From Planctomycetota bacterium (GTDB lineage Bacteria > Planctomycetota > Planctomycetia > Pirellulales > Lacipirellulaceae): DNA of 64,000 nucleotides. Positions 10,107 to 32,959 of this stretch are shown here, piece after piece; within the stretch, counting starts at the first letter, position 1, and each line of letters begins with the position of its first letter. The notes beneath the pieces were generated by a model that saw nothing but the letters and a program-made list of their open reading frames with translations, was not told where the DNA came from and searched no databases. Location of the stretch: positions 124,001-188,000 of the forward strand of contig JAJRSE010000071.1 of NCBI GenBank assembly GCA_024278955.1, in the 5' to 3' direction. The translations under genes and the position numbers were made by a program.

Positions 10107-10181
10107 GGTGGCTGTAGTTCAGCTGGTTAGAACGCCGGATTGTGATTCCGGAGGTCGGGGGTTCGAGTCCCCTCAGCCACC
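10107..10181 (+). tRNA. tRNA-His (GTG anticodon)
   Basis: A complete cloverleaf can be drawn: acceptor arm 10108-10114 with 10174-10180, D arm GTTC/GAAC, anticodon arm CCGGA-TTGTGAT-TCCGG with anticodon GTG, and a T arm with TTCGAGT. A G at 10107 provides the G-1 that marks histidine tRNAs, opposite discriminator C 10181. CCA is not encoded. The 3' half is overlapped by the minus-strand integrase tail, which is typical of an attachment site. Confidence 0.96.
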
Positions 10182-10730
10182 CTCTTTGTTTCGCGGGAAA
10201 CACTTTGTTTTTCAGGGTGAGAACGCTCTTCTAGGCAATCACCCCTCACGGCCCAATTGTCAGCAATTGCCCCCGATATGCACCCTTTGTTAGAATTTGG
10301 TGCAAGCATTGGTGCAACCGACTTGTCCACGTTTGTACAGGTGCGGTTGAGCGGGTCAATGTCGCGGGCGTCGGTGCCGGTGGCTCGCTGGTAGTGGTCG
10401 ATTTGTGGCATCATCACCGACAGAAACTAGCCCGCTTCTTACTCGCTCGGCCCTTGCTACCAAGTCTCGCAGCACGGCTTGGGCTGCGGTCTTATCTCGG
10501 CAGCCGGTCGCCGATTCTTGGACGATGCCCGACCCGTCGCGGTACTTGGCCGTAAAGGTCCCGGCTTCGGTTCGGATTCGTAAAGAGCCGTTTCGACCCT
10601 CAACGACGGGTGCCGTTTGTCGCTTACCAGAACGGTCTCGCCAGCAGGCTAGTTGTTCGCCCTTGCGAGTGATTAGTTCAGCATCAGCGGGCAGATTGCG
10701 GGTCACGGTCTTTCGATAAACGCTAGCCAT
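10127..10730 (-). pseudogene. Tyrosine recombinase (integrase) with the catalytic domain deleted
   Basis: Reading from ATG 10730, the first about 105 residues (MASVYRKTVTRNLPADAELI, then CWRDRSGKRQT and GTFTAKYRDGSGIVQESATG) are the N-terminal domain of a planctomycete-type site-specific integrase. The frame ends at 10356. A second frame from 10417 carries a typical integrase C-terminal tail (HYQRATGTDARDIDPL, VAPMLAPNS) and runs on into tRNA-His. The central part with the catalytic Arg, His-x-x-Arg and Tyr is missing. This looks like an internal deletion near 10410-10420. The element could not excise with this protein. Confidence 0.8.
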
Positions 10731-10951
10731 CAGTTGCGCCCCTTTCGTTCGGTTAGTTCCAAGCCGAAATACTCGGCTAATTTATCGGCGAAATCAAGCC
10801 GGAGACTTGCTTCACTTCGGGCGAACCGCATCAATGATTGCCGCGTAACCCCTGTTTCCTGCTCCAACGCTTGGAACGATAGGGGGCAGTCGTTCACCGC
10901 ATCCCGTAGATGGTCGGTAATTGTCATCGGTTTTTTCTTTCGTTTGCTCAT
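10730..10951 (-). CDS. Small XRE-like helix-turn-helix protein, copy 1
   Basis: 73 aa with a basic N terminus (MSKRKKKPMTITDHLRDAVN) and a helix-turn-helix at about residues 25-62 (SFQALEQETGVTRQSLMRFA). Its stop overlaps the integrase start, so both were translated as a unit. It is likely a DNA-binding regulator or excision factor of the element. A paralogue of nearly the same length lies at 18637-18870. The two share the layout SFxALExETGxxRQxLMxF and SLRLDxADKLAxYFGL. Confidence 0.8.
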   Translation of the reverse strand: MSKRKKKPMTITDHLRDAVNDCPLSFQALEQETGVTRQSLMRFARSEASLRLDFADKLAEYFGLELTERKGRN

Positions 10952-10991
10952 GTACTATTTCTTACACGATATGCGTATTTGAGTCAAGAGA

Positions 10992-11252
10992 TTATCGCTT
11001 CGCTCTCTCGGGCTTGCCCGTTTCTACGTCGTAACCCCAAAACTGCCCGCAGCTTTTACAGGTTACCCGACGGAAGCCTGCCCGCCCGTAGCGGTCGGGG
11101 CCGTATCGCCAGTTGCCGGCATTATGGTGGTCGAGCGGGCAGCCTAAGGGCTTCGGTAGTTTTGGCAGCCTAGTTGCCCTCTCGGTTGTCGGCATCGCCG
11201 TTGGCGGCGTGCTGGCGGTCCAGAGTTGGGCGATTTGATCGGTTAGGTTCAT
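10992..11252 (-). CDS. Small zinc-ribbon protein
   Basis: 86 aa. Two cysteine pairs or ligands are visible: CPLDHH near residue 38 and CKSCG near residue 66, the latter in FRRVTCKSCGQFWGYDVET. This is a treble-clef or zinc-ribbon pattern. It lies upstream of the HTH-integrase pair on the same strand and is probably in the same operon. The 3' half (10980-11101) is repeated almost exactly at 18896-19018. The function is unknown; such ribbons often bind nucleic acid. Confidence 0.65.
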   Translation of the reverse strand: MNLTDQIAQLWTASTPPTAMPTTERATRLPKLPKPLGCPLDHHNAGNWRYGPDRYGRAGFRRVTCKSCGQFWGYDVETGKPERAKR

Positions 11253-11300
11253 CGAGCCGCGCTTTCTTTCGATTGGTGAATCCCGTTGCCGCAGGCAAAA

Positions 11301-11400
11301 AGGGATTCTCTTATGGAATCCTTATGGGATATAGGAACCAATGAGTTCCTCTGTGAATGCACCCAAAGTTCCGCTGTACGTAGGAACTAATGGGTTCCTA
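11301..11400. promoter_or_regulatory. Cluster of three short palindromes, likely operator sites
   Basis: Two similar palindromes, TAGGAACCAATGAGTTCCT (11332-11350) and TAGGAACTAATGGGTTCCTA (11381-11400), are 49 bases apart. A related inverted repeat GGATTC-7-GAATCC lies at 11303-11321. They sit between the end of the winged-helix gene and the start of the zinc-ribbon gene, upstream of the HTH/integrase operon. Similar half sites at nearly constant spacing suggest binding of a dimeric regulator, possibly the HTH protein encoded next door. This is an inference from position and symmetry. Confidence 0.6.
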
Positions 11401-11407
11401 CGTGAAG

Positions 11408-11824
11408 CTACGGCGGTGTCCCCGAGGAGGGGGGCAGCGGCAGCACTCGGTAGCGAGACATTCCGCGATTCAACCCGCCTCGATAAACGACTTTCAGCAG
11501 CCCGCGTTTTTCCAATCGCCGCAGGGCCTTTGCTACGCCACGCACGGACAAGCCGCTACGACGTGCTAAGTCGCTCTGAGCGGTGCGAGCCGTGCCGTCG
11601 CGGGTATCGCGGTAAAGAATCAGCCAAACGACAACATCGCCTCGACAAAGGGTGCTGAGCGTTTCGTCAACAAACGAATTTAGCACTTCAAAACGCTTGC
11701 CCGTTGTTTTGTGTTTGGGCTTGCCGCTCGGCGACGGTCCCGCGGCTTGCTCCGGTCGCTCATACTCTCGGTTCGCCTGCGGTGTTCCCATCGGCGGCGG
11801 CAAAGGCGGTAGTCGCTTGCTCAT
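11408..11824 (-). CDS. Winged-helix DNA-binding protein of the element
   Basis: 138 aa from ATG 11824, which overlaps the upstream ATPase stop as ATGA. The first 50 residues are proline-rich and disordered. Residues about 70-125 form a winged helix: TLCRGDVVVWLILYRDT, then ARTAQSDLARRSGLSVRGVA and RLEKRGLLKVV. The pattern resembles replication or partition helper proteins of phages and plasmids. It closes the replication operon (primase, ATPase, winged helix). Confidence 0.7.
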   Translation of the reverse strand: MSKRLPPLPPPMGTPQANREYERPEQAAGPSPSGKPKHKTTGKRFEVLNSFVDETLSTLCRGDVVVWLILYRDTRDGTARTAQSDLARRSGLSVRGVAKALRRLEKRGLLKVVYRGGLNRGMSRYRVLPLPPSSGTPP

Positions 11825-12705
11825 ACCGTCTCCCCCCCAGCAGGCAGGCCCCACAACTCGGTAGGCGACGTATCGAACGAGGTATCAAGCACCGGCGGCG
11901 TGAATCGCTGGACACTTCCGGCCCATTCCAGGTCGACGCCCGTCGGTTCGCCGTGGCGATTCTTCAGACACGCCAGCTTGGCCTTGCTCGGCCCGTCGGG
12001 GCAAAGCATGTAGGCCGCGTCGGCTCCGAACTCCAGTTCGCTCGATTCCCGAAAACTAGCAAGATTCAACCCGTTCGAGTCATAGCTACTACGGCCTTGC
12101 TTGTCCTTCGTCCGGCCAACGGCAGCCAGCACTAGCAGACCGCAACCGGCGTCGGCGAATCGCCGCAAGTAGTCCATCAGCCGATTCACCTGCTGTCGTT
12201 TTTCGTCGGCACCCGCGTCGAATCGCTGAGCATAATCAATCACAATCAGATTGGCGTCGGTCGCGTCGGCAGCCGCGGCGACGTTGGGCAAACTGAAAGG
12301 CGATTGCAAGAACGTCAGCCGGTCGGCTACCGTGTCGAGAATCTCAAAAGCGTCGGCCAGCCGTTCGCCATGCGATTTGTCTAGCACTCGATCGCGAATT
12401 AGGTTGAGCGGTACGCCCGACAGCCGCGACAACTGCCGGTCGAGCAAAACCGCCGGTGAGCTTTCGACATTGGCAACCAACACCCGCAGCGATTCGTCGA
12501 TCCGCAAAGCGTCGACCACCCACTGCATGGCGAGTGCCGTTTTGCCGGCACCCGGTGCCCCGCCCAATAGCACCACCATACCGGGGCCAAGTTCGAGACA
12601 ATCAAAACCATTGCCGACCGACCACCGCAGCGGTTTTTTGCCACTTAGCACGTCGTCACGCCAAGCGGCGATGGCGTCAGTGGCCGGAAGAAAGCTAGGT
12701 TCCAT
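11821..12705 (-). CDS. RecA/DnaB-like replicative helicase ATPase
   Basis: 294 aa from ATG 12705, which overlaps the primase stop. Walker A is GGAPGAGKTA at residues 48-57, and Walker B is LIVIDYAQRF. A block with LVLAAVGRTKDKQG resembles DnaB motif H3/sensor regions, and AAYMLCPD with CLKNRHGEPTG resembles the arginine-finger end of DnaB C-terminal domains. It lacks a DnaB N-terminal domain, so it is a RepA- or phage-type single-domain helicase. It sits between the primase and the winged-helix protein, as expected for a replication module. Confidence 0.8.
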   Translation of the reverse strand: MEPSFLPATDAIAAWRDDVLSGKKPLRWSVGNGFDCLELGPGMVVLLGGAPGAGKTALAMQWVVDALRIDESLRVLVANVESSPAVLLDRQLSRLSGVPLNLIRDRVLDKSHGERLADAFEILDTVADRLTFLQSPFSLPNVAAAADATDANLIVIDYAQRFDAGADEKRQQVNRLMDYLRRFADAGCGLLVLAAVGRTKDKQGRSSYDSNGLNLASFRESSELEFGADAAYMLCPDGPSKAKLACLKNRHGEPTGVDLEWAGSVQRFTPPVLDTSFDTSPTELWGLPAGGETV

Positions 12706-13675
12706 CGCTTGCCCCCTTCGCTTCCAAGCCACACTGAATCTGCCGTCGCACTTCCTTCGGCGCAAGCCCGCTATCAAGCCCCGGTTCGGTGAGCAACGCA
12801 TGGGCAAGCCCCGTCGGGCAACCAAACTCGGCCAAGTTGGCTGCCGCCGAGAACAACAGCCGATGCCGGTCGCCCTCGATCGCCCCCTCGACCATAAACG
12901 CCCGCGTTTGTCGGTTGAGCGTTGCCATGGGGTTGGCGATTCGACGTTCGGCTAGTGCCGACGCCTCTTGTTCGACCGCCGACACCGCCCTCGCCCAATC
13001 GTCGACCGCTTGCGGGTTCGCCGCAGGCTCTGCGGGCAAATCAAACGCCTCGGGCGTCGCGGCCATGCGAACGATCGCGTCGACGCTCAGCCCCATCAGT
13101 TCGCCAAACGTCAGCCGGCGTTTGTGCAAGCCCGTTTTCGGGTGCCGCGAATTCGGAGCCCGAAACGCCCGCACCCGGTCGTAAACGCCGTGGTCGATCG
13201 TCACGCCAAGTTGCTCGGCTAAACCGCAAGCGAACTGCCGGGCGACCTTGTGGAACGTAACCGATGGGGGGGGTGAACCTACCAATGCCATCGGCAACCC
13301 CACATGAAAACCTTTCGCACCACTAAAAAACATCAGCAGCGCGTCGCCGTCAATTCCGTATCGCTCGACAATACCCGCACACAATCGCCGGGTTTGCGCC
13401 GTGGCGTGTTCTAGCTCGCCTTCGGCATCAATGTCGAACCAAAGCCACGACGCACCACAGCGGCCAGCGTAGCCTTTGGTCGAGCGGGTTTCGGTTAGGT
13501 GTTCGCCGAATTCGTCTGCAAACGTGAACGCCGAAAGGTATGCTTCGCGGTCAACTTCGGCTCTAGTGTCGCATTGGCAATAGGCGGCCAGTGCGGCTTG
13601 CCAATCGACAAGCCGCCTTTCGCCCGTGCAATTGCCGACGATCCGGAAACCAAGCTGACTATCGTCAGAATTCAT
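12695..13675 (-). CDS. Archaeo-eukaryotic-type DNA primase
   Basis: 326 aa from ATG 13675, which overlaps the stop of the gene before. The catalytic signature of AEP primases is visible. WLWFDIDAEGE gives the two metal-binding aspartates (Asp81, Asp83), and FFSGAKGFHVGLP (about 116-128) gives the Ser-x-x-Lys-x-x-His motif. A third block carries YDRVRAFRAPNSRHPKTGLH. A C-terminal helical domain follows and may help bind DNA. AEP primases of this kind drive replication of plasmids, phages and satellites. Together with the helicase it suggests the element replicates or once replicated by itself. Confidence 0.82.
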   Translation of the reverse strand: MNSDDSQLGFRIVGNCTGERRLVDWQAALAAYCQCDTRAEVDREAYLSAFTFADEFGEHLTETRSTKGYAGRCGASWLWFDIDAEGELEHATAQTRRLCAGIVERYGIDGDALLMFFSGAKGFHVGLPMALVGSPPPSVTFHKVARQFACGLAEQLGVTIDHGVYDRVRAFRAPNSRHPKTGLHKRRLTFGELMGLSVDAIVRMAATPEAFDLPAEPAANPQAVDDWARAVSAVEQEASALAERRIANPMATLNRQTRAFMVEGAIEGDRHRLLFSAAANLAEFGCPTGLAHALLTEPGLDSGLAPKEVRRQIQCGLEAKGASDGT

Positions 13676-14156
13676 CGTTGCCCCCTTCCGACTGAGGGGC
13701 AAACGGGTCGACTTCCGGCTTGTCGATGCCGAGTACCGAAAACCGCACCACCCGATTGCGTTCGGTCCCGTCGTCGTCCTTTCGCAACGCCACCCGCACT
13801 TTACAGCGAATGCCCGGCGGTAGCGGCTGTTCGAGCTTCTCCGGCGAATCGATGCCGAGTTTTACGAGATCGCGTTTGGCCATCGGCAGCGCCGCCGGCG
13901 TCAGAAACAAATCAAGCCAGACCAATCGGCCCGCATATTGCGTTTCGGTGCCGGGGCCCTCGATCACTTTGAACGTCAGCGAGTAACTTGGCGTCCCGGT
14001 GCGAGCCGTTTTCAGCTCACCCCGATCGGCATGGCAAACGTATTCACCGGGTGGCAGCGGCTTAAATTCGTCCGCCGCTTCGGTGTTTCGCCAAGTTTGT
14101 GAAAAATCATCGCGACCGAAGCCGCCACTTGCTAAAATATCTGAGAGTTTACCCAT
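13665..14156 (-). CDS. DUF669-like phage replication accessory protein
   Basis: 163 aa from ATG 14156, with AAGGAA upstream. The body follows the DUF669 pattern: PPGEYVCHADRGELKTARTG, SYSLTFKVIEG, RLVWLDLFLTPAALPMAKRD, then a beta-rich section. The tail PFAPQSEGGNDEF is acidic, as in single-strand-binding proteins. DUF669 genes lie next to phage primase and helicase genes and are thought to act with ssDNA. The gene overlaps both neighbours by a few bases. Confidence 0.7.
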   Translation of the reverse strand: MGKLSDILASGGFGRDDFSQTWRNTEAADEFKPLPPGEYVCHADRGELKTARTGTPSYSLTFKVIEGPGTETQYAGRLVWLDLFLTPAALPMAKRDLVKLGIDSPEKLEQPLPPGIRCKVRVALRKDDDGTERNRVVRFSVLGIDKPEVDPFAPQSEGGNDEF

Positions 14157-14634
14157 CTGGGATTCCTTCCTTGAATTGTGGGAATGATTGTTGAACCGAA
14201 GCCGCGCCGGTCGCACCCGGCGTGGCTTCACTTTTTGCCAGTTCGGCGGCGGTCGAGAGTCGCGAATCCATCGCCGCCACCAGGCCCGTCAACAGCAGCC
14301 CCGCCCTGCGACGATCAACTAACTGCCAACGCGTCACATAGCCCCGATGCCGGCTAGGGCGTTCACTCTTTTCGACACCAACCCGCTCGATCAGTTGGGC
14401 CATCGCAAGCGTCCGGCAAACTGTGCCGCGCCACTTGCCGCCGTCGCCGAACGACTCAGCCAGATCGGTCGTCGCATCATCGATCGTCGCCGTCCCGTCA
14501 GCCGAGGCAAGCAGCGCCCGCAACAGAGCAATTTTGCCAGTCGATACTCGGTCGTGCCGAGCGTTAGCGGCGAGCGTCATGCCGAGTAGCTTGGCCGCTT
14601 CGCCACGGTCCCGTAATTTAATTTCAGGGGTCAT
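14149..14634 (-). CDS. Element protein of unknown function, helical
   Basis: 161 aa from ATG 14634, which overlaps the previous stop as ATGA. The central part (ARHDRVSTGKIALLRALL, then TTDLAESFGDGGKWRGTV) is helical, with a stretch like a winged helix before YVTRWQLVDRR. The N terminus is short and charged. No family is recognised. The position between the AlpA-like regulator and the DUF669 gene suggests a role in replication control of the element. Confidence 0.55.
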   Translation of the reverse strand: MTPEIKLRDRGEAAKLLGMTLAANARHDRVSTGKIALLRALLASADGTATIDDATTDLAESFGDGGKWRGTVCRTLAMAQLIERVGVEKSERPSRHRGYVTRWQLVDRRRAGLLLTGLVAAMDSRLSTAAELAKSEATPGATGAASVQQSFPQFKEGIPDG

Positions 14635-14852
14635 CGGCGGCCCCCCTTCACCGTGCGGACGGAGGGGCAGCCGGCGGCCAGCCAATCGTTTAGGTCGGTG
14701 CGAGGCCATCGCACTAGCGCGCCGAGCTTGACGGGCCGCGGCAGTCGCCCGGCATCGGCCAATCGGTAAACGTGCCGCGTCGAACAGTCGAGCAGCTCGG
14801 CAACCGCTTCAACGTCCAGTAAGGCGGCTTGCCCTTTTTCAAGAATAGTCAT
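14631..14852 (-). CDS. AlpA/excisionase-like helix-turn-helix protein
   Basis: 73 aa. Residues about 11-55 form the MerR-like HTH used by excisionases and AlpA regulators (VEAVAELLDCSTRHVYRLAD, then RLPRPVKLGALVRWPRTDL). It is the first gene of the minus-strand replication operon, directly downstream of the palindrome-rich region 14952-15056, and could bind there. Confidence 0.8.
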   Translation of the reverse strand: MTILEKGQAALLDVEAVAELLDCSTRHVYRLADAGRLPRPVKLGALVRWPRTDLNDWLAAGCPSVRTVKGGRR

Positions 14853-15184
14853 CGGGATTCCTTCGGTCGTCGTGGTTGGGCGTGCCCAGTCGTCTCATAC
14901 GACTGCCACAACACGCCCAGTACAGACCACAGACCGGACTGGCCGGACCCCAACCGGATTTTCCGCCAATGTCCAGGAAAGACCAGAAAACAAGGGGTTC
15001 GTCAGAAATAGCCCCCAAACCGGATTTTTAGAAAAATCCGGTTTCGTCCGGTTTGCCACGCAATTGCCTATCCCTGGCTAGCCGATAAAGCTAAAATGAA
15101 ATAGGTTCGGTGCCGCTCGTCGGCTCGATAGGGTTCGCCCCGCCGAACTTTATCTTTTCTTTGGTAAGCGTAGGAAACACCAAG
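14853..15184. promoter_or_regulatory. Palindrome-rich control region or origin of the element
   Basis: This gene-free stretch separates the minus-strand replication operon from the plus-strand pair at 15185. It holds a perfect inverted repeat with 13-bp arms and a 2-base loop, AAACCGGATTTTT (15017-15029) and its complement (15032-15044). The half site AACCGGATTTT recurs at 14952-14962. Further CCGG-centred words occur at 14930-14955 and 15045-15055. An AT-rich segment lies at 15085-15110. Next to a primase-helicase operon, such iterated half sites could be a replication origin or the operator of the AlpA-like regulator. This is not proven. Confidence 0.6.
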
Positions 15185-15447: not shown

Positions 15448-15912
15448 ATGGCCGATTCTAAAGTCGAACGGACTTCACCAGGCGAAGAGCAACCAGACGA
15501 CAGCGCCGGTGACCTTTCTCAAATTTCAATAGAACGTCACCAGTTCTATCAAGGACCGCTTCCACCTCCTCAATCACTTGCAGAATACGAGAAAATACTG
15601 CCCGGTTTAGCGCAAACGATAGTCGACACGGCTCAGAAGGAACAGGATTCTCGGCACCAAACAACGCATTACGAGCAGGAAACCGAACGGAAATTCTTTC
15701 GTCATGCAGCCATAAAAACCTACCTCGGGCAAATAGGTGCGTTCGTCATTGTGATGACGACCCTTGTCGGCTGCATAGGGCTCATCAAGGATGGCCACTC
15801 GGTGGTGGGCATTGCTGGAATCGTCACCGCGTTAGTAGCACTGTCGGCGGTTTTCATCGTGGGTAAACTATTGAAAGCCAACGAAGCTTCTGAGCCGACC
15901 GATGCAGCTTAG
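15448..15912 (+). CDS. DUF2335-like predicted membrane protein
   Basis: 154 aa. The N-terminal half is polar, with QFYQGPLPPPQSLAEYEKIL, then EQETERKFFRHAAIKTYLGQ. Two hydrophobic helices follow at about residues 98-117 and 120-140, with a short charged tail. This is the layout of DUF2335, a family found in phages and genomic islands. It converges on the 643-aa gene with a 4-base overlap of the 3' ends. The role is unknown; a membrane-acting effector or phage-exclusion protein is a possibility. Confidence 0.65.
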   Translation: MADSKVERTSPGEEQPDDSAGDLSQISIERHQFYQGPLPPPQSLAEYEKILPGLAQTIVDTAQKEQDSRHQTTHYEQETERKFFRHAAIKTYLGQIGAFVIVMTTLVGCIGLIKDGHSVVGIAGIVTALVALSAVFIVGKLLKANEASEPTDAA

Positions 15913-17840
15913 ATTTCGCTTTGTTTGGCCACACTCACACCAGTAGCTCTGTCAGCCCGGGGCAGATTTTTGTTTTCACCGGTCGCCCTGCGAGCTTCTC
16001 GCAAATAGCGTTGCCAAGTGTCAAAAGCAGGCAATTCGTAGCCGACCAAGTCGCCAAAAAAGGTTTCGTCGGGCTGCCCGTTTAACCAGTCGTAAGCCTG
16101 CTGATCGATCAAATTTTCTGCGTGTTGGCTCTCGGCCAACTTCCAGCTAGCCCACGCTTTTTTGACGGCAGGCGACAAGCTCGACAAGCCAGCGGGGGTT
16201 TTTGATTCGGGGGTCTCCACCCCACCGCCGACCACGGGTGGCTCGACAGAAATCGCAACGGGCAACACCGCCAGAATCGCCTTAACAAAATCGCCATCAA
16301 AGCTGTAGACCGTCGCCTGTCGATAGCTGTCGTGTTTTCCCTCAACAATGCCCAATCGCTCTAACTCGGCTACCGCTGCCAGGGCGTCGCCTTGCTCATT
16401 GCGAATACCCTCTTGGAACCGCAAAGCGTGAATCCTGGGGTGATTGTGAACCTGCAAGTGCAACACCAACGCCCGTACCCCGGCAATGCCGTCAGGCGAG
16501 AGTTGAGAAACGATTTCGTCAGGAGTCTGCCGCAGCATCGAAATCAGCAAATCAATCGCATTGATCGATGCTCGCCAAATATTGTTAATCCACGAATACC
16601 AAAACGCTGGCGGATCGCCGACTCGTTCGACTAGCTCGGCAAACTTTCCCATGGAAAGTAAATCGCTCGTTCGCATCCTTGGCAAGTCGTCTATCTTGAG
16701 CTGGTAGTTTTCGTGCCAAGCAAAACGCTCGGCACTCAGTCGGCTTGCTGGCAGTTCCTGCCAAGCCAATTCAAACACGGCATTAGTCCAAAATCCAGCA
16801 GGCTTGGGCTTAACAAACCCATGTGGCCAATCCCGCCAAAGAACTTGCCGGGCAGCTTCCGGTAGGCCATTAAGCAATTGCCCCAACTCAGTAGCCGCGT
16901 CGTTGTATTCGTCGATCGCCTCGGAATAGCTAGATGCGTCGCTCCCTTGAAACATTTTTCCATAGAGCGAGTAAGTCCGCTGCGCACCGGGGTACAACGC
17001 AACCGGCTTTCCATCGCCGTAAACCATCGGCTTTCCTTCGGCATCGAGAAACGGTTTCTTGCCGACGGCTGGTTTCCCGTTCGCGTCAAACAATTGCCGG
17101 ATGTCACAATGCGGCCCGCCGCCTAAGTTGAGTTGGTGATGAGCTTGGTTCTCGCAATTTTCGGGCCAGAATGGCTCAGCCTTGTTCCCTAATTCGGTTC
17201 GATGCACCAGCATCACCGCCAAAACCCGATATTTTTCCGCAGCCGCTTCGAGTCGTTCGCGGCAACGAGTAAGCGAATCGTGAATCAGGCCAGCCCCACC
17301 CGCATCGACTACAGGCGTTTGTTTCGGTGACCCTGCTTGCAGCGTCATAATTTGCCTTGCGTATTCCACTTCGCTTTTGCAGGAACTTCCCGCAAACGGG
17401 CTGGTAACCCGCAACCCACTAGCCAACTCTTCAATCGATGCCGTATCGTCAAGGGTAGCTTGAATGACCGTGAGGATCGCCGCCCGGTCGGCTATGTCGC
17501 TAAGGCCGAACGAATCCCCAGTCGGGTCCCTTCGGTAAAGTCGATGGCATCGCTCGGCGGAAAGACGAATACGATCTTCGTAATCCGTCCCCTTCGCTAG
17601 CTCAACAATGCGGCGAATCGCATCAACTAGAGCGGCTATCGTTTCTGGATCGCCCGGCTTGCTGTAGGTGTTTTCGATCGCTTTCTCGAACGACTCCCAC
17701 GCCTTATTCCAAAGCGAAGTAAATTTTTCATCCCACTCTACCGCGTCATCACAGGCTTGCCGACGCTCTTCGTTTTTTACTTCGACCGTCTTACGATGCT
17801 GAGCCAGAAACTCAGTTGCATTGTTACTTGAGTCGTCCAT
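15909..17840 (-). CDS. Unrecognised 643-aa island protein
   Basis: From ATG 17840 the product has 643 aa, is soluble and has no signal peptide. Residues 1-250 are helical and charged. Residues about 250-310 carry a glycine-rich repeat of the type DANGKPAVGKK, DAEGKPMVYGDGK. A Trp-rich helical section follows (FWYSWINNIWRASINAIDLL). A compact block near 490-530 reads like a winged helix (LAAVAELERLGIVEGKHDSY). The C terminus (YELPAFDTWQRYLREARRAT) recalls tails of other planctomycete mobile-element proteins, from memory only. No enzyme motif is visible. A TTG start at 17897 is less likely. Confidence 0.6.
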   Translation of the reverse strand: MDDSSNNATEFLAQHRKTVEVKNEERRQACDDAVEWDEKFTSLWNKAWESFEKAIENTYSKPGDPETIAALVDAIRRIVELAKGTDYEDRIRLSAERCHRLYRRDPTGDSFGLSDIADRAAILTVIQATLDDTASIEELASGLRVTSPFAGSSCKSEVEYARQIMTLQAGSPKQTPVVDAGGAGLIHDSLTRCRERLEAAAEKYRVLAVMLVHRTELGNKAEPFWPENCENQAHHQLNLGGGPHCDIRQLFDANGKPAVGKKPFLDAEGKPMVYGDGKPVALYPGAQRTYSLYGKMFQGSDASSYSEAIDEYNDAATELGQLLNGLPEAARQVLWRDWPHGFVKPKPAGFWTNAVFELAWQELPASRLSAERFAWHENYQLKIDDLPRMRTSDLLSMGKFAELVERVGDPPAFWYSWINNIWRASINAIDLLISMLRQTPDEIVSQLSPDGIAGVRALVLHLQVHNHPRIHALRFQEGIRNEQGDALAAVAELERLGIVEGKHDSYRQATVYSFDGDFVKAILAVLPVAISVEPPVVGGGVETPESKTPAGLSSLSPAVKKAWASWKLAESQHAENLIDQQAYDWLNGQPDETFFGDLVGYELPAFDTWQRYLREARRATGENKNLPRADRATGVSVAKQSEI

Positions 17841-18028
17841 GAAACCGGTTCTCGTATCCGGTGCGGTTGAATTCTCGAAAACAATAAAGCGGGGCAAGCG
17901 GTCGAGAAACCGCGGTTCAGGTGCTACCCTAGCCCCACTGCACCTTAGCCTTTTCGGCTCGCCTCTTCAAACGACGCCGATGGATTTGTAATTTCGTGCT
18001 CTTCCGTCTGGTCTATTCCTCACCAAAA

Positions 18029-18210: not shown

Positions 18211-18393
18211 CTACAGGATCACGCCTTCCAGAGATTTGACCCGCCCCCCCTTGGCTGGCAGCCGCCCGAACCATGGCCAAGATGCCCGCTCGAATAGCTT
18301 CGGGCAGGTCGGGCCACGCTTCAAGAACCGAAGCCAATTCAGCGTCTGAGGGCAACAATTCCAAACGCTTCGAGGTTGTTACGTCGGGCTTGC
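18211..18393 (-). pseudogene. Detached C-terminal tail of an integrase-type gene
   Basis: A minus-strand frame without a start codon reads SKPDVTTSKRLELLPSDAEL, then VLEAWPDLPEAIRAGILAMV, and stops at 18211. Such tails (a Leu-rich start, EAWPxLPxAIRAGILAMV) occur at the ends of planctomycete mobile-element proteins. It lies in a shifted frame directly behind the PD-(D/E)XK fragment, so a deletion has joined two unrelated genes. It is clearly a remnant. Confidence 0.55.
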
Positions 18394-18609
18394 TGATTTA
18401 TTCATCCATTTGGGTTTCCCACCGCTGCTCGTCTTAACTTGGATGGACACAGATCGAGTTCCATCTGCACTACTGGCAATAATGTCGATTCCTCGGCTGT
18501 TCCTAAGCGTAATGGAGGCTAGGTATCCCCTTAACGACAATTCTGCAGCCACATAGTATTCTCCAGCAACCCCAACCAACGTACTTTCGAGCTTACTCAC
18601 GTCTGACAT
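18379..18609 (-). pseudogene. Truncated PD-(D/E)XK nuclease-like protein
   Basis: 76 aa. The core AGEYYVAAELSLRGYLASIT, then RGIDIIASSADG and VSIQVKTSS, shows the Glu, Asp and Gln-x-Lys pattern of small PD-(D/E)XK nucleases of the DUF4365 / group I intron endonuclease-like type. These are normally about 140-170 aa. The protein breaks off just after PKWMNK and joins integrase-tail sequence, so the second half is lost. It may be non-functional. Confidence 0.65.
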
Positions 18610-18636
18610 TGCAAATCGTCTCCTAACGACAGCGGA

Positions 18637-18870
18637 CTACTGCACACTCTCCGGATTTTTGTTTCTCGAAACCAGCACCAAGCCGAAATAAGCGGCCAGC
18701 TTGTCGGCTTTGTCGAGCCGCAAGCTTGTTTCGCCACGGGAGAACTTCATTAGCGTTTGTCGCAGCAGTCCGGTCTCCCGTTCCAGGGCTGCGAACGAGA
18801 GTGGCGAACCGTTGATTGCGTCGCGTAGTCGAATTGTCATTGCCGTTAGCTTTCGTTTTTTCTTGGCCAC
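18637..18870 (-). CDS. Small XRE-like helix-turn-helix protein, copy 2
   Basis: 77 aa, paralogous to the protein at 10730-10951, with the same basic start (MAKKKRKLTAMTIRLRDAIN), the same HTH (SFAALERETGLLRQTLMKFS) and the same end of the domain (SLRLDKADKLAAYFGL). It presumably regulated a second related element. Here the integrase that should follow has been replaced by a nuclease fragment. Confidence 0.75.
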   Translation of the reverse strand: MAKKKRKLTAMTIRLRDAINGSPLSFAALERETGLLRQTLMKFSRGETSLRLDKADKLAAYFGLVLVSRNKNPESVQ

Positions 18871-18895
18871 GTAATTACAGTTACCTATTTCTGAG

Positions 18896-19018
18896 TTTGA
18901 GTCAAGAGCTTATCGCTTCGGTCTCTCGGGCTTGCCCGTTTCTACGTCGTAACCCCAAAACCGCCCGCAGCTTTTACAGGTTACCCGACGGAAGCCTGCC
19001 CGCCTGTGGCGGTCGGGG
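18896..19018 (-). pseudogene. Second copy of the zinc-ribbon 3' half
   Basis: About 123 bases are nearly identical to 10980-11101 (only a few substitutions). They encode the C-terminal RRAGFRRVTCKSCGRFWGYD of the zinc-ribbon protein. Upstream of about 19018 the similarity stops abruptly and transposase sequence begins in the same frame, giving a chimeric open frame. The first cysteine pair of the ribbon is lost. Confidence 0.75.
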
Positions 19019-19601
19019 AGTGACAACTCTTGATAGGCAATTGCCTCGGCTTCCACCTCCGCGATGCGTTCATCTCCCACACGCTTGGTCCATCGTTCGA
19101 TCTTCTTTGCGGTAACCGCCACCTCGGCCAGCGCTTCGAGATCTTTCGTCGCCTTCGGGAAGGAACACGATTGAGCTCCGGTGTAGGCGACCTTCCGCAG
19201 CAGACCGGGCGAGAAGGGGCAATCGACCTCAACGCCCATCAAGCTGGTCATCGGGCCCCGTTTTTTGAGTAAGGGGAAGCCCGCCGACAGGCGGGACAGT
19301 AGTACTCGGGTTCGACAAGCGTCGCTGGCCCTCGCCGCGTAAGAAGCTCTCGCTCTCGCTTCCCCCTGTATTGACCCAGTTTGCCACACTTGGGGCAGAC
19401 CGACTCGTCGTCTTGGGGCGGGTACTCGTTCGACCTTTGTTTGAGCAATTCCGCATGCACCGCGTTGGTAATCTCGATCGCCTGGTTCTCGATCGAGTCG
19501 AGCCAGCAGACGCCCTTGCTGGCATCGACTGCACCCATTTCTTCGCTCAACTGGCGCGCATACGCCGCGATTCGTTCCTGAAATCCTGTGGTAGTTGCCA
19601 T
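19019..19601 (-). pseudogene. ISKra4-family transposase remnant
   Basis: The first 117 codons from ATG 19601 (ERIAAYARQLSEEMG, ESVCPKCGKLGQYRGKRERE, VEPEYYCPACRRA) are the N terminus and zinc-finger region of an ISKra4-type transposase. Near 19280 the frame shifts. The second frame continues with FPLLKKRGPMTS, CPFSPGLLRKVAYTGAQSCS and ALAEVAVTAKKIERWTKRVG, as in the family, and is cut off near 19018. The catalytic domain is absent, so the insertion sequence is dead. Its ends could not be located. Confidence 0.8.
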
Positions 19602-19855
19602 CCTTGACTCCTTAAATCCAGCTTCACGCCGGCACGCCCCCCCCTGCGACCAAATTCCCTAGCACAGGTTACCTCAAGACCAGCCAACGCGCAAACCGCG
19701 ACTTGCACCCACCCTGCAGTCACGTGGATAGGCTCCGATGCGTACTTGACCTACTTCAACTACAAAGTGGGGCCTATCGCTGCAACTCAAAATTCTACCG
19801 GCGGACTGGTTTTACGAATGAAGGCGCTGGCGAAGTGGATCCGACTGTGCCATTT

Positions 19856-27470: not shown

Positions 27471-29717
27471 CTACAAATCGAAACTAAAGGTCCGTCCCAA
27501 GTAGCGAATAAGCCGACTGGCAAGAGTCCTCGGACCGGTCTTGATTCGTGCCTGACCAACGAGCCCGTTGCGAAAAAGTCCACGGGAGTTGTCGAGGCGA
27601 ACAACCGCTTGGTAGGAAGTACTCAGCGGACGCACTGCCCCGGTTGGGTCGGACTGCGCCGGCACGGGGCCGCCCGAAGTGCTTGCAAGTCGAGGCGAAA
27701 GTGTTTCCAGCTCGTCGAGTGCCAAGTAATCGATCGTACTCACAAACACATGAGTGGTCGACTCGTTAAACATCAGTCGCACTTCCTGGCCTTCGGTGAC
27801 AAGGTCTTGCTCACGTTGGTTAATCACCAGCACCGCATCCCATTGATCGGGATCGCCAATTTTGCAAAGCAAATTATGTGGCCCCTCGGGCAGGAGTGTA
27901 GCACCGAGGTTCTCTTTCTCTAACGGCGAACCCGACCAACTTGCAAGCTCCACTTGTTGATCGCCCTGGGGATCGGCGCGGCGCGGCGGTGCAATCACGG
28001 TGCCTGCCACGGGAGCTAGCAACTCCAGTCGTTTGGCATCGCGTAGTTTTTGCTCCAATTGCTCGTTGAGCGCCGCCAGTTGTTCGCGAACCACACTGAT
28101 TTGCCCACCTTGGCCTTCGTCGCGAAATCGAAGCTGTTGCAAACTATCGAGCTGCACCCGGGTTGCGTTACGCTGGCCACGAAGTCGCTGGATATCGATT
28201 GCCAAATCGACATTTCCAAGTCGGGCCAAAATGTCACCCGCTTCGACCTGCTGGCCAGGCTCGACAAGAATTTCCTCCAACGTTCCCTCGACTTCGACAT
28301 ACACCGAAGCAGCACCATGCGGTTGCAGCTCGAAGCTGCAAAGCACACTCGACGGAAACGGGATGAAAAACACCCCACCGACAAACGCGGCTAACAAGAG
28401 CAGGGTTGCGAACATTCGTACCTTTTTCACTTTACTCCACCTCCCGGGGACTCGGAAGAACTTAAACACTTTGACAAATGGCATCACGATAAGCCCATAC
28501 AGCGACATCAGTGCGATCAATTGACCCAGGACCTTGAGTCCATAGGGCTCGAATATTTTGTTGAGAAAATACAGAATCGAGAACAGGATCACCCAGCGGT
28601 ATAAAAACGAAGCGACCGTGTAGAGTGCGAAGATCATGTGATGTCGTTTCGGCAAAAACGGATCGTCGGGCTCTTCGAGCCCCAAGCACCAGCTGCCCAG
28701 TTTTCGATTTAAGATCGTGCTCGCTTTTTGCCGGAGATTTGGAATCTCTAGGATGTCGCTAAGAATGTAGTAGCCATCGTAGCGCAGCAGCGGATTGGCG
28801 TTAAAGAGGATGGTGCTCACCGAGCTGACGAACATGATGTTCAAGCAAACATAGTTCAAGAAGCCCGGTTCGCTGAACCACCAAATAAACGTGGCAAACG
28901 TCGCTATCACAATCTCGACATACATCCCCGCCGCACCGATTGCCGCTCGGTGCCAACGATTGGGCAACATCCACGAATCCGAGACGTTGCAATACAAACA
29001 GGGCGTCAACACCAAAAACATGACACCCATCTCATGGCATTCGCCGCCGAAATGTTTGCATGACAACCCGTGGCCAAACTCATGAATCACCTTGGTCGCG
29101 CCCAGGACGCCCGCAATCAGAAGCCAGTTCTGCGCCGCAAAAAACGACTGGAACGAAGGCAATCGCGATTGGAATACCTCGAACTGAACCATGACCAGCA
29201 TCAGCGCAATCGAGGCCAATATCGTACAAAAAATCGTCGTCTGCACCGAGAAAAACCAGCGGACGTACGGATAGATCGCATTAAGAATCCACTCGGGATC
29301 GAAACCTTTGAAGCGAAACGCCAGAATATTACTAAACGCACCGATTGTTTCCTTGCGTTTACGCTCGTCTCGACGTTTCTTGAGCTGAACTCCTTGACCA
29401 GGGACGTCCGAAAGAATTAGCCCGCTGCGGTACAACATGCCAATAAAGTTTTGTATCTCTTCGACACGAATCGGCACAACGGGGAACTCGGCCTCAAACT
29501 TCTCGACAATCTCTTCAAGACTCGACTGCCCGTCGAGCATCTGAAGGATCGCAAACTCTTCTTCCTCGAAACGGAAATACTGCAAGCCTATCGGATCTTT
29601 CACGACCCAATAAACGCGACCTTGATAACGCTGCCGACGTGCTTTCAGGTCGGGGCGCACCAAGATATTCAGCCTGCGCGACGAGCTAGAAACAATACTG
29701 TCGGCAAGCGTAGACAT
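27471..29717 (-). CDS. PqqD-like / M50 site-2 protease / HlyD fusion membrane protein
   Basis: 748 aa. Residues about 30-105 form a PqqD-like winged helix (YWVVKDPIGLQYFRFEEEEF). Membrane helices start near 155. The zinc site is HEFGH at 212-216, with a second element NANPLLRYDGYY near 307-317 giving the distal Asp, as in M50 proteases. After the last helix (about 435) comes a biotinyl-lipoyl/HlyD section (VEVEGTLEEILVEPGQQVEAG, coiled coil, then VAGTVIAP). It is the third gene of a minus-strand cluster with two HlyD-type proteins. Such proteins are widespread in planctomycetes; their substrate is unknown. Confidence 0.85.
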   Translation of the reverse strand: MSTLADSIVSSSSRRLNILVRPDLKARRQRYQGRVYWVVKDPIGLQYFRFEEEEFAILQMLDGQSSLEEIVEKFEAEFPVVPIRVEEIQNFIGMLYRSGLILSDVPGQGVQLKKRRDERKRKETIGAFSNILAFRFKGFDPEWILNAIYPYVRWFFSVQTTIFCTILASIALMLVMVQFEVFQSRLPSFQSFFAAQNWLLIAGVLGATKVIHEFGHGLSCKHFGGECHEMGVMFLVLTPCLYCNVSDSWMLPNRWHRAAIGAAGMYVEIVIATFATFIWWFSEPGFLNYVCLNIMFVSSVSTILFNANPLLRYDGYYILSDILEIPNLRQKASTILNRKLGSWCLGLEEPDDPFLPKRHHMIFALYTVASFLYRWVILFSILYFLNKIFEPYGLKVLGQLIALMSLYGLIVMPFVKVFKFFRVPGRWSKVKKVRMFATLLLLAAFVGGVFFIPFPSSVLCSFELQPHGAASVYVEVEGTLEEILVEPGQQVEAGDILARLGNVDLAIDIQRLRGQRNATRVQLDSLQQLRFRDEGQGGQISVVREQLAALNEQLEQKLRDAKRLELLAPVAGTVIAPPRRADPQGDQQVELASWSGSPLEKENLGATLLPEGPHNLLCKIGDPDQWDAVLVINQREQDLVTEGQEVRLMFNESTTHVFVSTIDYLALDELETLSPRLASTSGGPVPAQSDPTGAVRPLSTSYQAVVRLDNSRGLFRNGLVGQARIKTGPRTLASRLIRYLGRTFSFDL

Positions 29718-29772
29718 GGGTGAGAGGTGGGGGGTGAGAGTCGAGAGTCAAAAAGAAGCAAAGAGGCGGGGG

Positions 29773-30714
29773 TTAGGACCGTTTTTTTTCTGGTTCAGGA
29801 TTCTTGGCACTCGACTCGGAGCTTAAATGAATCGTCATGCGGGCTCTCAGGCCAGGTTGAATTAGCCAACCATTGCCAACTCGCTGATTCTTCACCTCGG
29901 CTCGCACCACATAGCCGCCATCGCCTTGGACCAACTGGCTCACATGGACCACCTTGCCCTCAACGGTCACTTCGCGTCCCCGCGACTTCGCAATGCTAAC
30001 GGTCACCGATCGGCCTTGGAGTTCTTCGCGATCGAAATCCCGTGCGTATGCGTATCCTTCGACGTAGAGCGAATCGAATCGGACAAACTTCAAAATGGGA
30101 TCGCCCGGATTCACCCATTCCGATTCTTTTCGGTAAGTATCCACCACTTCGCCATCGAAAGGCGCATGGATGGAACGCATCTCAACCGCCATCTCGGCAG
30201 CTTGGCGTTCAGCAAATTTTGTTTTGGCATCGAGCCGCGCCAGCTCACGGTCTTTTTGTGCTTTCTCGATCTGCAAACTCGACCTCTCCCAACCGAGTTT
30301 TTTCTGCCTCACTTCGATATCGGGAACCGCGTTGGGAGTTTTTTCGTTTGCCTCGACAGACCTATCCCAGTCGACTTTGGCAAACTCAGCTGCCTTGCTG
30401 GCATATTTTTCTTCGATTTTATCGTTGGCACGTTGCTTGGCCGCATCGAAAGCATATTCGGCGATTTTTAGTCCCATCTTCGCTTCACGGTCGTCGATCG
30501 TGGCAAGCACGTCGCCTTTCGATAATCGCGAGCCTTCCTTCACCGACATTTTGATCAGTACGCCCGCCTCTTGAGCCGGAATGCGCACCTCGTCTTGCAC
30601 CTTGACGATACACGGATCGAGCACCGGATCGCCCCCCTCGGCTGCGTATGACTTACCGGCACCACCTAACTGGGTCGTCAGAGTCAAAACGAGTAGTAAT
30701 AAAGTAGCAGCCAT
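29773..30714 (-). CDS. HlyD-type periplasmic adaptor
   Basis: 313 aa from ATG 30714 (GAGGTGAG just upstream), with a signal peptide (MAATLLLLVLTLTTQLGGAG). Lipoyl-like half motifs flank a long coiled coil (about residues 75-175): QEAGVLIKMSVKEGSRLSKG before it and IHAPFDGEVVDTYRKESEWV after it. A beta-barrel domain follows. It is a membrane-fusion-type adaptor, but no ABC or RND pump gene is nearby. It lies between the GAF-HlyD and the M50-HlyD genes, so it probably forms a complex with them. Confidence 0.85.
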   Translation of the reverse strand: MAATLLLLVLTLTTQLGGAGKSYAAEGGDPVLDPCIVKVQDEVRIPAQEAGVLIKMSVKEGSRLSKGDVLATIDDREAKMGLKIAEYAFDAAKQRANDKIEEKYASKAAEFAKVDWDRSVEANEKTPNAVPDIEVRQKKLGWERSSLQIEKAQKDRELARLDAKTKFAERQAAEMAVEMRSIHAPFDGEVVDTYRKESEWVNPGDPILKFVRFDSLYVEGYAYARDFDREELQGRSVTVSIAKSRGREVTVEGKVVHVSQLVQGDGGYVVRAEVKNQRVGNGWLIQPGLRARMTIHLSSESSAKNPEPEKKRS

Positions 30715-30826
30715 ACGACTCACCTCAAAAGAAAACAGTAGGGTGCGTGCAGTCTTTACAAAACGCACCACAGAAGCTTCTAAACACTTTTTTTCCAACA
30801 CCTAGATTCACCAACAAGAAACACAA

Positions 30827-32959
30827 TCAAAGCCGGAACAAAATTTTCGAGCGAACAAAATCAAACAAGTCGCTAAACAGCACAAACCCGACTGCCCGCT
30901 CTCCACACTGGACCTTGGCTTTCACATCGGCCCCGACCTTGAGTTCAATCGCCGGGTTGTCGACCAATTTTTTCAAATCTTCTTGTGGAAAAGAAACTTT
31001 CATGCGAACCGTGTTGCCGCTCTCGCCTTGCACTTCAGCGCTGGTATCGATCTGCACGATATGCCCTTCCAGACGAACAGCCGAATGGGTGGCGAGGATA
31101 AAGGTTACCTCAAGCTTCGCCTCGGGGTCCTCAGCACGGCGTTTCTGCATGTACTCAACGATGTGGCCCATCTTGGCCTCGGGTACATAGATTTCTAGTT
31201 CCCAGCGGCTTGTCGGGTCTGCGATTTCCATCAATCGCTGGCCCTTTCGCACGGGACGGTTTTCTATCAGCTCACGTACCTTCCAGGTGACCACCTTGCC
31301 GCTAATGGGGCTGGTGATCTTGAGCATCTCACGTTTTTCGCCAAGCAGGGCTCGCTGTTTCTGTAAACTGATAACCGATTCGCGTAGCTGAGCCATCCGA
31401 CCGGTAAGCTCTTCGATTTCTATCTCCTCGGCTTGCCCACGATCGAGCAATTGCCGCTGACGATTGGTCGATTGAATGTCCTGCTGGGTCTCGGCAAGCT
31501 GCCCCGTTATTTGCATTATCTGCGCCTCAAGATCGACGCTCCGCTGTTGCGCCAAAACTTGGCCTTTTTCCACTAATTGGCCATGGCTCACAGAAACTTT
31601 TTCGACCATCCCGTCGAGGTGGGCGAAAACATCGCGCCGCAGCTCGGGCAGCAACTTACCATCGGCCACCACGGTAAAATCGTATCTCATAAAACAAAGC
31701 GCGGAAACCAGGCCTACCACTGCAACCGTGGCGAGCAAAGTCTTCGGAAGATTTCGAGCCGTGACAAGAACCTGGGTTTTGCCTAACAGCCGCCATAACG
31801 GCATCAGAAACAACGACTCATGTTCCTGGGCATTTGTCAAAGCGGTGGAGCTGTGTCGTCGGACAACTTCGATGCGTTGCAACATCCCTTCGGGCTGCTG
31901 ACTGTCGACCAACTGCTCGACGATGATCGCGCCAAGAATATTCTCTCGTTTCTTTTTCTTCTTCTCGCCGGGATGCTCGTCCGCTTCGCTCTCGGCTTCG
32001 CGAAGTGGCAAGACCGCCAACTGTTTGGTATGTGATTCGTCGACATATTCGTTGACCGCTTTTTCTACTTGCGGAGCTAAGTCGGAAGTATCGCCATCGA
32101 ACCAAAGATCTTCGCCGGTTCGTGCCACGGTCGTAGCAAGCTTGCGTAACAACCGAACCACATTCGATCGTTTGTCGAACGTATCCTGGCCGCTAATGGC
32201 TTCGACCCGGTACTTGGAACCTCGGCGAAGCACAACCGTCACACGATCGCAACCTACGAGTCGGCGTCCTTCGTTTGCGATCGTGTAAGCAGTTTCGCGC
32301 GAATCGAGTGCCTGGTGAACCAGCCCCGTGAAGGCTTCTAACTGTTCCCAAAGCGTCTGTTTCGTTGCAAAGTGGCGAAGCCGACGAGACTTGACGTACT
32401 CGCCAGCCAACTCGCAAATCTGTGACAGAAACCTGAGGTATCCCCGCTGAGTTGTCGGTCGTGCTCCGGCCCGTTGGAAAATTTCAACGAGGCCGTCCAC
32501 ACCGCGATCGCTCTTAATTGGCGCAAGCACTAAAAGAAAATCAGTCGGATTAGCAACCACGTCTTCGTCGCCAGAGCTTTCGCCAAATCCTGAATGAGGA
32601 GGGACCAGCACCGGCTCGCCTTTAGCTATCACCTGCTGCAAGAGTCGGCCATGTTGCATCTGGGCCTCTTCGCTTTCGGCGAGGCCCGTCTCACGAAGAT
32701 TCACTTGGTATTCGAGGCCTAACGGAGCGCCATCTTCCTGGGTCCAGACCACGCCGCCGACTGCCGCCAGGGCTGTGACCGACTTGTCGAGCAGCGCAGA
32801 ATAGAATTCGGCAGGCTCGATCTCCGAACGCGAAAGCTCGACGACCTCCTGAACAAGCCCTTGGATTTCCTGCTTGGCCCGATGGACCGCCCCCTCGTCG
32901 ATTGCGCTGGCAGATCGCTGACCTTCGGGAGACGGATCGGAATGGGATGATGTGCTCAC
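30827..32959 (-). CDS. GAF-domain / HlyD fusion membrane protein
   Basis: 710 aa from GTG 32959. Two GAF-like domains occupy about residues 30-200 and 215-390, the second containing a lysine-rich insert (HPGEKKKKKRENILGAIIVE). One membrane helix follows near 404-424. The C-terminal part has lipoyl/HlyD sections (VFAHLDGMVEKVSVSHGQLV and ITSPISGKVVTWKVRELIEN) separated by a coiled coil. The GAF half should lie in the cytoplasm and the HlyD half outside, so it could couple a cytoplasmic signal to an envelope complex. It is the first gene of the three-gene cluster. Confidence 0.82.
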   Translation of the reverse strand: MSTSSHSDPSPEGQRSASAIDEGAVHRAKQEIQGLVQEVVELSRSEIEPAEFYSALLDKSVTALAAVGGVVWTQEDGAPLGLEYQVNLRETGLAESEEAQMQHGRLLQQVIAKGEPVLVPPHSGFGESSGDEDVVANPTDFLLVLAPIKSDRGVDGLVEIFQRAGARPTTQRGYLRFLSQICELAGEYVKSRRLRHFATKQTLWEQLEAFTGLVHQALDSRETAYTIANEGRRLVGCDRVTVVLRRGSKYRVEAISGQDTFDKRSNVVRLLRKLATTVARTGEDLWFDGDTSDLAPQVEKAVNEYVDESHTKQLAVLPLREAESEADEHPGEKKKKKRENILGAIIVEQLVDSQQPEGMLQRIEVVRRHSSTALTNAQEHESLFLMPLWRLLGKTQVLVTARNLPKTLLATVAVVGLVSALCFMRYDFTVVADGKLLPELRRDVFAHLDGMVEKVSVSHGQLVEKGQVLAQQRSVDLEAQIMQITGQLAETQQDIQSTNRQRQLLDRGQAEEIEIEELTGRMAQLRESVISLQKQRALLGEKREMLKITSPISGKVVTWKVRELIENRPVRKGQRLMEIADPTSRWELEIYVPEAKMGHIVEYMQKRRAEDPEAKLEVTFILATHSAVRLEGHIVQIDTSAEVQGESGNTVRMKVSFPQEDLKKLVDNPAIELKVGADVKAKVQCGERAVGFVLFSDLFDFVRSKILFRL

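Follow-up and report, generated by a model that had tools for sequence, protein, structure and literature searches.

A broken integrative element beside tRNA-His in a planctomycete, and its relatives across the Pirellulales, which look like phage satellites

What is a compact set of replication genes doing beside a transfer RNA (tRNA) gene of a planctomycete, next to an integrase that is no longer whole? The question is raised by a 64,000-nucleotide stretch of DNA, called the window throughout (Planctomycetota bacterium, family Lacipirellulaceae, order Pirellulales; assembly GCA_024278955.1, contig JAJRSE010000071.1, positions 124,001 to 188,000), in which the minus-strand open reading frames (ORFs) from 14852 to 10127 point at tRNA-His, the only tRNA in the window. 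An earlier note on this DNA had placed a satellite-like primase-helicase element with a dead recombinase here, and ORF and family searches find the genes that it listed, on the minus strand and in the order that it gave. We consider the locus to be, with fair probability, the immobilised remnant of an integrative element from a Pirellulales family whose members are most likely phage satellites.

The evidence that carries this reading is comparative: insertion at tRNA genes, a conserved replication cassette and the break in the window's integrase all emerge when the sequences of the relatives are set beside the locus. The gene order alpA, winged helix, DUF669, primase, DnaB, winged helix, (zinc ribbon), (helix-turn-helix, HTH), integrase recurs in other Pirellulales. 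We compared 44 relatives at 3-20 kb (36 in a first set, with L149-L155 and L165; L and G numbers are our own labels), and in 25 of them each end is marked by a direct repeat that includes a portion of a tRNA (the 3' portion in 24 of them, the 5' portion in L052). These bounded relatives measure 7.2-11.9 kb in 23 cases, 15.5 kb in L041 and 19.0 kb in L037, and their targets are ten tRNA types (Val, Pro, Ala, Ser, Leu, Lys, Arg, Met, His and Glu). Among the 22 that were scored for genes, the DUF669-like gene and the primase are present in 22, the integrase in 21, the DnaB-type gene and the winged helix in 20 each, and alpA in 15. L051 carries another integrase type, as read by eye, and in the distant members L062 and L063 the DUF669-like gene, primase and integrase are the only genes found. 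A named member, Adhaeretor mobilis HG15A2 (Lacipirellulaceae, Pirellulales), has the element in its chromosome, at a tRNA-Leu, with its ends at about 1,721,820 and 1,731,344 of NZ_CP036263.1. The features of the window copy are as follows.

10108-10182, plus strand: tRNA-His(gtg), found by ARAGORN; attachment target with the element on its 3' side, tRNA and upstream gene being the same in element-free relatives.
10127-10417, minus strand: C-terminal piece of a tyrosine integrase, aligned to the C-terminal tails of full-length integrases (DNA match to L165 83%).
10356-10730, minus strand: N-terminal piece of a tyrosine integrase, about 108 homologous residues with the catalytic part absent (alignment to relatives).
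10730-10951, minus strand: small Cro/C1-type HTH, adjoining the integrase as in several relatives (HTH_3 3.1e-4, below its cut-off).
10992-11252, minus strand: zinc-ribbon-like small protein without a family match (Cys/His motif by eye; similar ORFs at 13 other loci).
11408-11854, minus strand: winged helix resembling DnaD-type loaders and phage replication initiators (HTH_24 6.8e-7; PHROG helicase loader 5e-6, and initiators).
11821-12825, minus strand: DnaB C-terminal-type ATPase, helicase domain only (DnaB_C 1.6e-18; P-loop positions conserved in 20 aligned sequences).
12695-13702, minus strand: archaeo-eukaryotic-type primase (AEP) (PHROG primase 2e-17; DNA_primase_S 1.1e-3; PriS by profile 1.6e-5).
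13665-14231, minus strand: DUF669-like, predicted single-strand DNA-binding protein (DUF669 4.7e-4, just under its cut-off; PHROG single-strand DNA binding 0.004).
14149-14709, minus strand: core protein of 186 aa without a family match, modelled by AlphaFold as a winged helix with a long C-terminal helix.
14631-14852, minus strand: AlpA-like (HTH_17) regulator or excisionase (HTH_17 1.1e-12; PHROG excisionase/regulator 1.6e-9).
14952-15055, no strand: half-sites AACCGGATTTT before alpA, at 14952-14962, with a perfect 13+13 palindrome at 15017-15044 and a further half-site at 15047-15055.
15448-15912, plus strand: DUF2335 / phrog_3996 membrane protein, on the opposite strand between the half-sites and the next gene, perhaps a later insertion.
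15909-17897, minus strand: variable upstream gene, 662 aa, with a conserved C-terminal domain of about 100 aa that is homologous to domains upstream of alpA in relatives.
18637-18870, minus strand: HTH of a second, remnant element, 60% identical to the first HTH.
18896-19018, minus strand: zinc-ribbon remnant of 123 nt, 96% identical to 10978-11100.

The integrase is where the window copy departs from its relatives. Integrases that form one ORF in relatives have 487-686 residues, and the full-length one that was scanned, from L040, matches Phage_integrase at 5.7e-18. In the window the first 108 or so residues and the C-terminal tail lie in different frames, the catalytic part between them is gone, and about 1.17 kb is missing in comparison with L165. 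The dead recombinase of the earlier note is thus borne out by alignment to full-length relatives; its "integrase tail" is there, with the N-terminal residues left as well. The C-terminal piece overlaps the 3' end of the tRNA, as in many relatives. Because the catalytic part is missing, the window copy cannot excise by its own integrase, and the replication genes are still open frames. A second piece of a family integrase is found on another contig of the same genome (L196:8742-9623, 57% over 280 aa), with the catalytic part present. The region L196:8742-9708, in which this piece ends at a tRNA-Asp, is a further remnant of the family in that genome.

How far does the element extend? The earlier note had ended it at 15056. 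It extends to at least 17897, because homologues of the 662-aa gene sit just upstream of alpA in relatives: the C-terminal 100 or so residues of the protein are common to genes in this place in L035, L036, L039, L041, L046 and L066 (in L046 a DUF3800-like gene sits between the upstream gene and alpA). The far attachment (att) site was sought across all 64 kb with the tRNA-His gene and its 3' edge, at three levels of allowed mismatch; the single match was to mid-tRNA sequence, at 35.7 kb, and a second 3' end of tRNA-His did not appear. Synteny gave no right junction either, as no protein of the window's right flank adjoins tRNA-His in relatives, paralogue-like matches apart. Those matches, to 27471-32959, lie beside tRNA-His of relatives at 26-35% identity and were taken as paralogues and not as junction markers. 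Direct repeats with a tRNA portion at both ends, together with an intact integrase, were not found in the window copy. Beyond the upstream gene, the HTH at 18637-18870 and the 123-nt zinc-ribbon stretch are, judged by their similarity to the first copies, remnants of a second, related element, fused within 18379-19607 to a fragment that resembles an ISKra4-type transposase. In six relatives (L042, L046, L047, L048, L056 and L150) the att repeats extend 37-124 nt beyond the tRNA into the integrase end; the extra stretch may be a tRNA terminator carried by the element, or what an earlier element left behind.

The positions of the AEP-type motifs (W-x-D-x-D, SGxKGxH and a later D) in the primase are invariant or nearly so in 26 sequences. 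The "unknown protein" of the earlier note keeps its lack of a family match and is now modelled as a winged helix (186 aa; mean predicted local distance difference test score, pLDDT, 79.3, with most of residues 61-150 above 85); against solved structures the model had no match at E <=0.001, the best E being 0.029. The gene overlaps of ATGA or about 10 bases that the note described hold only if inner starts are used; with several of the starts as listed, the overlap exceeds 10 bases. GC content is 0.60-0.61 across 11-15 kb versus 0.52-0.58 within 5 kb on each side, the genome has one primase copy, and the ratio of non-synonymous to synonymous substitution (dN/dS) between the window's element genes and two relatives is 0.09-0.27. 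A PHROG search of the element ORFs found no structural family, and no capsid, portal or connector gene; the AlpA-like HTH has a weak terminase small subunit (TerS) listing at 0.06. A Pfam search of the window ORFs found no relaxase or conjugation family.

Could such a set of genes be a domesticated chromosomal locus, retained because it serves the host, for instance in repair or phage defence? The open frames of the replication genes next to a dead integrase would suit this, but a recent inactivation would leave the frames open just as well, and the distribution of the locus speaks against it. Seventeen stretches were compared: one is the G202 element, two are without tRNA-His, one has a tRNA-His by similarity only, and 13 have a tRNA-His found by ARAGORN. 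Core genes adjoin tRNA-His in none of these 13 loci of genus and family relatives, in which the same upstream gene is present, although some contigs stop 2-5 kb past the tRNA. The closest relative, L165, was found in a different genome of the genus, where it lies at a tRNA-Ala (DnaB 87%; primase 91% over 45 aa). The gene order that the earlier note proposed to look for at tRNA-His in other Pirellulales does recur in the order, but not at the 13 tRNA-His loci of the genus and family; L056 is the only one of the 25 bounded relatives with tRNA-His as its target.

Across the order the primase is patchy. It is present in 40 of 396 sampled Pirellulales genomes, the window's included (29 of 144 genera; 35 at E below 1e-70), and in 18/241, 6/119 and 9/72 genomes of three families of the order, in samples that overlap the 396-genome one. 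Nine genomes match in a phylum sample of 392, which also contains genomes of the order without a primase match: the window's, one strong match (1.7e-81, same class) and seven weaker ones (1.6e-36 to 1.8e-4). A scan of genome contigs with the single protein gave four loci. A chromosomal gene set shared by all relatives, which the earlier note had named as a way in which it might be wrong, was therefore not found, and we regard domestication as very improbable.

The same note had allowed that relatives might carry a complete prophage here. None was found for the window copy; the bounded relatives are 7-19 kb long. A related possibility is that the locus is what remains of a temperate phage after the loss of its structural genes, a decayed prophage reduced to its replication and integration end. 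Viral sequences offer something for this view. In IMG/VR the window primase alone led to one distant locus and the primase alignment to 24 viral contigs, of which three (L166-L168) have at least three cassette genes; in the others the primase is distant, accompanied in some by a distant DnaB or DUF669. A terminase large subunit adjoins a similar cassette in two of these contigs, L167 and G913 (L168), and in G913 a portal does too. Phage and plasmid collections gave distant primases only, all under 60% identity. Repeated independent decay, however, would hardly yield 25 bounded relatives of 7-19 kb, spread over ten tRNA types and most of them with an integrase gene, and the element ORFs of the window lack a structural family in the PHROG search, the weak TerS listing being the one such match. 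We disfavour the decayed prophage as an improbable origin.

The cargo of the relatives bears on a third alternative, a cryptic integrative element that replicates itself without being a phage satellite, plasmid-like and moved by conjugation in trans, vesicles or uptake. The cargo tally has 91 ORFs, 89 from relatives and two from the window, and its families are the best 25 of 37 in Pfam and the best 25 of 72 in PHROG; the 12 further Pfam families are single-member and ranked after E 3.3e-6. Restriction-modification families are prominent among the Pfam and PADLOC matches listed. Bounded members thus carry mostly replication, integration, variable upstream and cargo genes, restriction-modification included, which is what a cryptic element would show, and AEP-bearing integrated elements without homologues of conjugation or phage genes have been described (Kazlauskas 2018, PMC5862659). 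Some members, on the other hand, have TerS, HNH or capsid genes, a prophage adjoins one member at a tRNA-Val half, and the best 25 of the 37 Pfam families of the 91 cargo ORFs include no relaxase or conjugation family. A cryptic element is possible, at odds well below those of a satellite.

Packaging genes in some members count in favour of the satellite. L034 has an HNH gene (4e-33), TerS (2e-5) and a major head protein (3.5e-49), the last with distant phage relatives and none in IMG/VR; L044 has TerS (2e-25), and L040 and L046 have weak TerS-like matches. L034 is a bounded element of 9.6 kb (L034:2326-11957), with no portal or large terminase among the five cargo ORFs scanned. In the 54.7-kb viral contig G911 (L166), matches to an integrase, RecE/RecT, a repressor, terminase, portal, major head and tape-measure proteins were found among 32 of the 60 ORFs of at least 120 aa, taking the best 25 of 61 families. 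These are followed by the 3' half of a tRNA-Val and then by a family member in reverse orientation, and the intact tRNA is absent from the contig. We read the arrangement in G911 as a prophage, complete in appearance, with a family element stacked next to it at a single tRNA gene. The stretch L195:8660-14711 of the same contig is a candidate helper-satellite pair at the tRNA-Val 3' half. Since packaging genes are recognised in a minority of the relatives, both satellite status and dependence on a helper are things that we infer. The satellite or replicating integrative element of the earlier note is thus partly supported, in its own replication genes and recurring gene order, with the satellite part resting on inference.

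Several points weigh against the reading of the locus as a satellite remnant. The window copy has no far att site detectable in the 64-kb search, and integrase action in trans is possible, because a piece with the catalytic part exists at tRNA-Asp in the window's genome. The dN/dS values of the window mostly record the time before inactivation, and the integrase of the closest relative, L165, is also split between two frames in the assembly. Among the relatives, no repeat pair is mapped at 19 of the 44 loci, some of them on short contigs, and none was found in L033, L058 and L059 searched over 26-32 kb; in L034, L044 and L039 the repeats reach no more than 18-24 nt; and L049 and L153 are not independent, because they are 84-96% identical over several kb. 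Most members have no recognised packaging gene, the cargo of L150, L152, L153 and L155 lay outside the scan, and L034 may be a shrunken prophage. A terminase large subunit beside the cassette in L167 and G913, in G913 with a portal as well, means, in addition, that the cassette can be part of a phage and is not exclusive to satellites.

If the family are satellites, how might they be controlled? A large gene that varies between elements precedes alpA, separated from it in most of them by a gap of 126-342 bp, and the half-sites in the gap tend to follow the C-terminal type of the upstream gene, which is a new observation. In the window gap the AACCGGATTTT repeat is in excess over shuffles (p=0.005). 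A 7-mer recurs above dinucleotide shuffles (p<0.05) in 13 of 24 gaps, the repeated words differing between elements, and 11 have no repeat excess; the best palindrome is longer than in shuffles in 10 of 30 gaps, and the other 20 show no such excess. At least two CCGGAT occur in 6 of 10 gaps with the window's C-terminal type directly upstream versus 2 of 22 without it (p=0.005). The two exceptions among the 22, L046 and L158, carry a window-type gene further upstream, and with these regrouped the counts become 8/12 versus 0/20 (p=4.7e-5). These p-values are only a guide, because the regrouping was post hoc, five loci had suggested the idea (the window, L036, L039, L041 and L046), gap lengths differ and the elements are related. 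Among loci with the window-type domain that were examined later, L158, L159 and L160 have at least two CCGGAT, with gaps of 0.5 kb in L158 and 1.4 kb in L159, and the gaps of L155 and L161 have none; L155 and L035 share a different half-site, AAAGCGGAC.

L158, L159 and L161 have the window-type upstream gene and an alpA match, but no match to this primase cassette. Other genes take its place, which suggests that the control part may move as a module. The C-terminal domain is modelled as four helices (mean pLDDT 73). Neither the 662-aa protein against solved structures nor the domain model in a fold search (E <=0.001) gave a match, so that calling the domain DNA-binding rests on its place, the four-helix model and the half-site pattern. 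We propose that the upstream gene and its half-sites behave as a swappable pair, of regulator and operator or of initiator and origin. It is a more tentative suggestion that the Pirellulales host a new phage-satellite family with exchangeable control cassettes, in which a variable sensor-regulator C-terminal type and its matching half-sites would be swapped as pairs, also onto elements with other replication genes, perhaps matching different helper phages. Stl repressors of the Staphylococcus aureus pathogenicity islands match helper phages by another route.

A working cycle can be sketched on these lines. Upon induction, the AlpA-type protein would switch on the operon, aid excision, or both, and replication of the excised circle would fall to proteins that the element itself encodes: the initiator-like winged helix, the AEP primase, the DnaB-type helicase and the single-strand DNA-binding-like protein. 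The variable protein probably binds the half-sites before alpA and would serve as operon switch or to start replication. The particle would be supplied by a phage, to which some members may add HNH, TerS or capsid genes. Most known phage satellites come from a small number of bacterial lineages. A literature search in which subscription papers and preprints lay outside the scope found no paper joining phage satellites with planctomycetes, and in the literature searched we found no earlier description of an order-wide family with this gene set. With the mapped ends, the Adhaeretor mobilis HG15A2 member and the cassettes of upstream gene and half-sites, helper sensing and the start of replication in satellites of this phylum become testable.

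Where, then, does the family stand among known systems? It is order-wide and looks like phage satellites, and we make no claim of its membership in the phage-inducible chromosomal islands (PICIs) or the phage-inducible chromosomal minimalist islands (PICMIs). Tycheposons and capsid-forming PICIs are integrated elements, some with capsid or terminase genes, whose integrase and replication genes differ. The capsid-forming PICIs are defined by capsid, portal and connector genes of their own; that definition is not matched here, as L034 has a capsid gene without a portal among the five cargo ORFs scanned and the window element has none.

The PrimPol-PV1 cryptic integrated elements, as described in PMC5862659, carry an AEP primase, often lie in tRNA genes, and are in some cases without phage or conjugation genes. 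The likeness is that of an AEP primase in tRNA-integrated elements; the window primase is set beside theirs by its AEP motifs and not by a supergroup signature. The main text of that paper has no word beginning planctomyc, and this gene set was not found in its account of such elements.

The PICMI satellites of Vibrionaceae (PMC10803314) have a core of integrase, alpA and primase, with DUF3987/DUF5906 primases and insertion beside fis. The family described here has the same kind of core, is small, is mostly without packaging genes and has a gene overlapping the integrase. It differs in inserting at tRNA genes instead of beside fis, and in that the window primase is of AEP type, with DNA_primase_S, not DUF3987/DUF5906, as its sole Pfam match.

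The PICIs of Gram-negative bacteria (PMC6092414) are small islands with an integrase, alpA, a primase/replication module and accessory genes, TerS or a phage cos/pac site being optional. In the family described here, which is known from its sequences, the AEP primase and the DnaB-type helicase are separate ORFs, and DUF669, winged-helix and variable upstream genes are added. The optional TerS was found in L034 and L044, weakly in L040 and L046, and not in the window element. What the window element and its relatives have in common with the PICIs is the combination of an integrase (broken in the window), an AlpA-type regulator (alpA in 15 of the 22 bounded relatives scored) and a primase/replication module.

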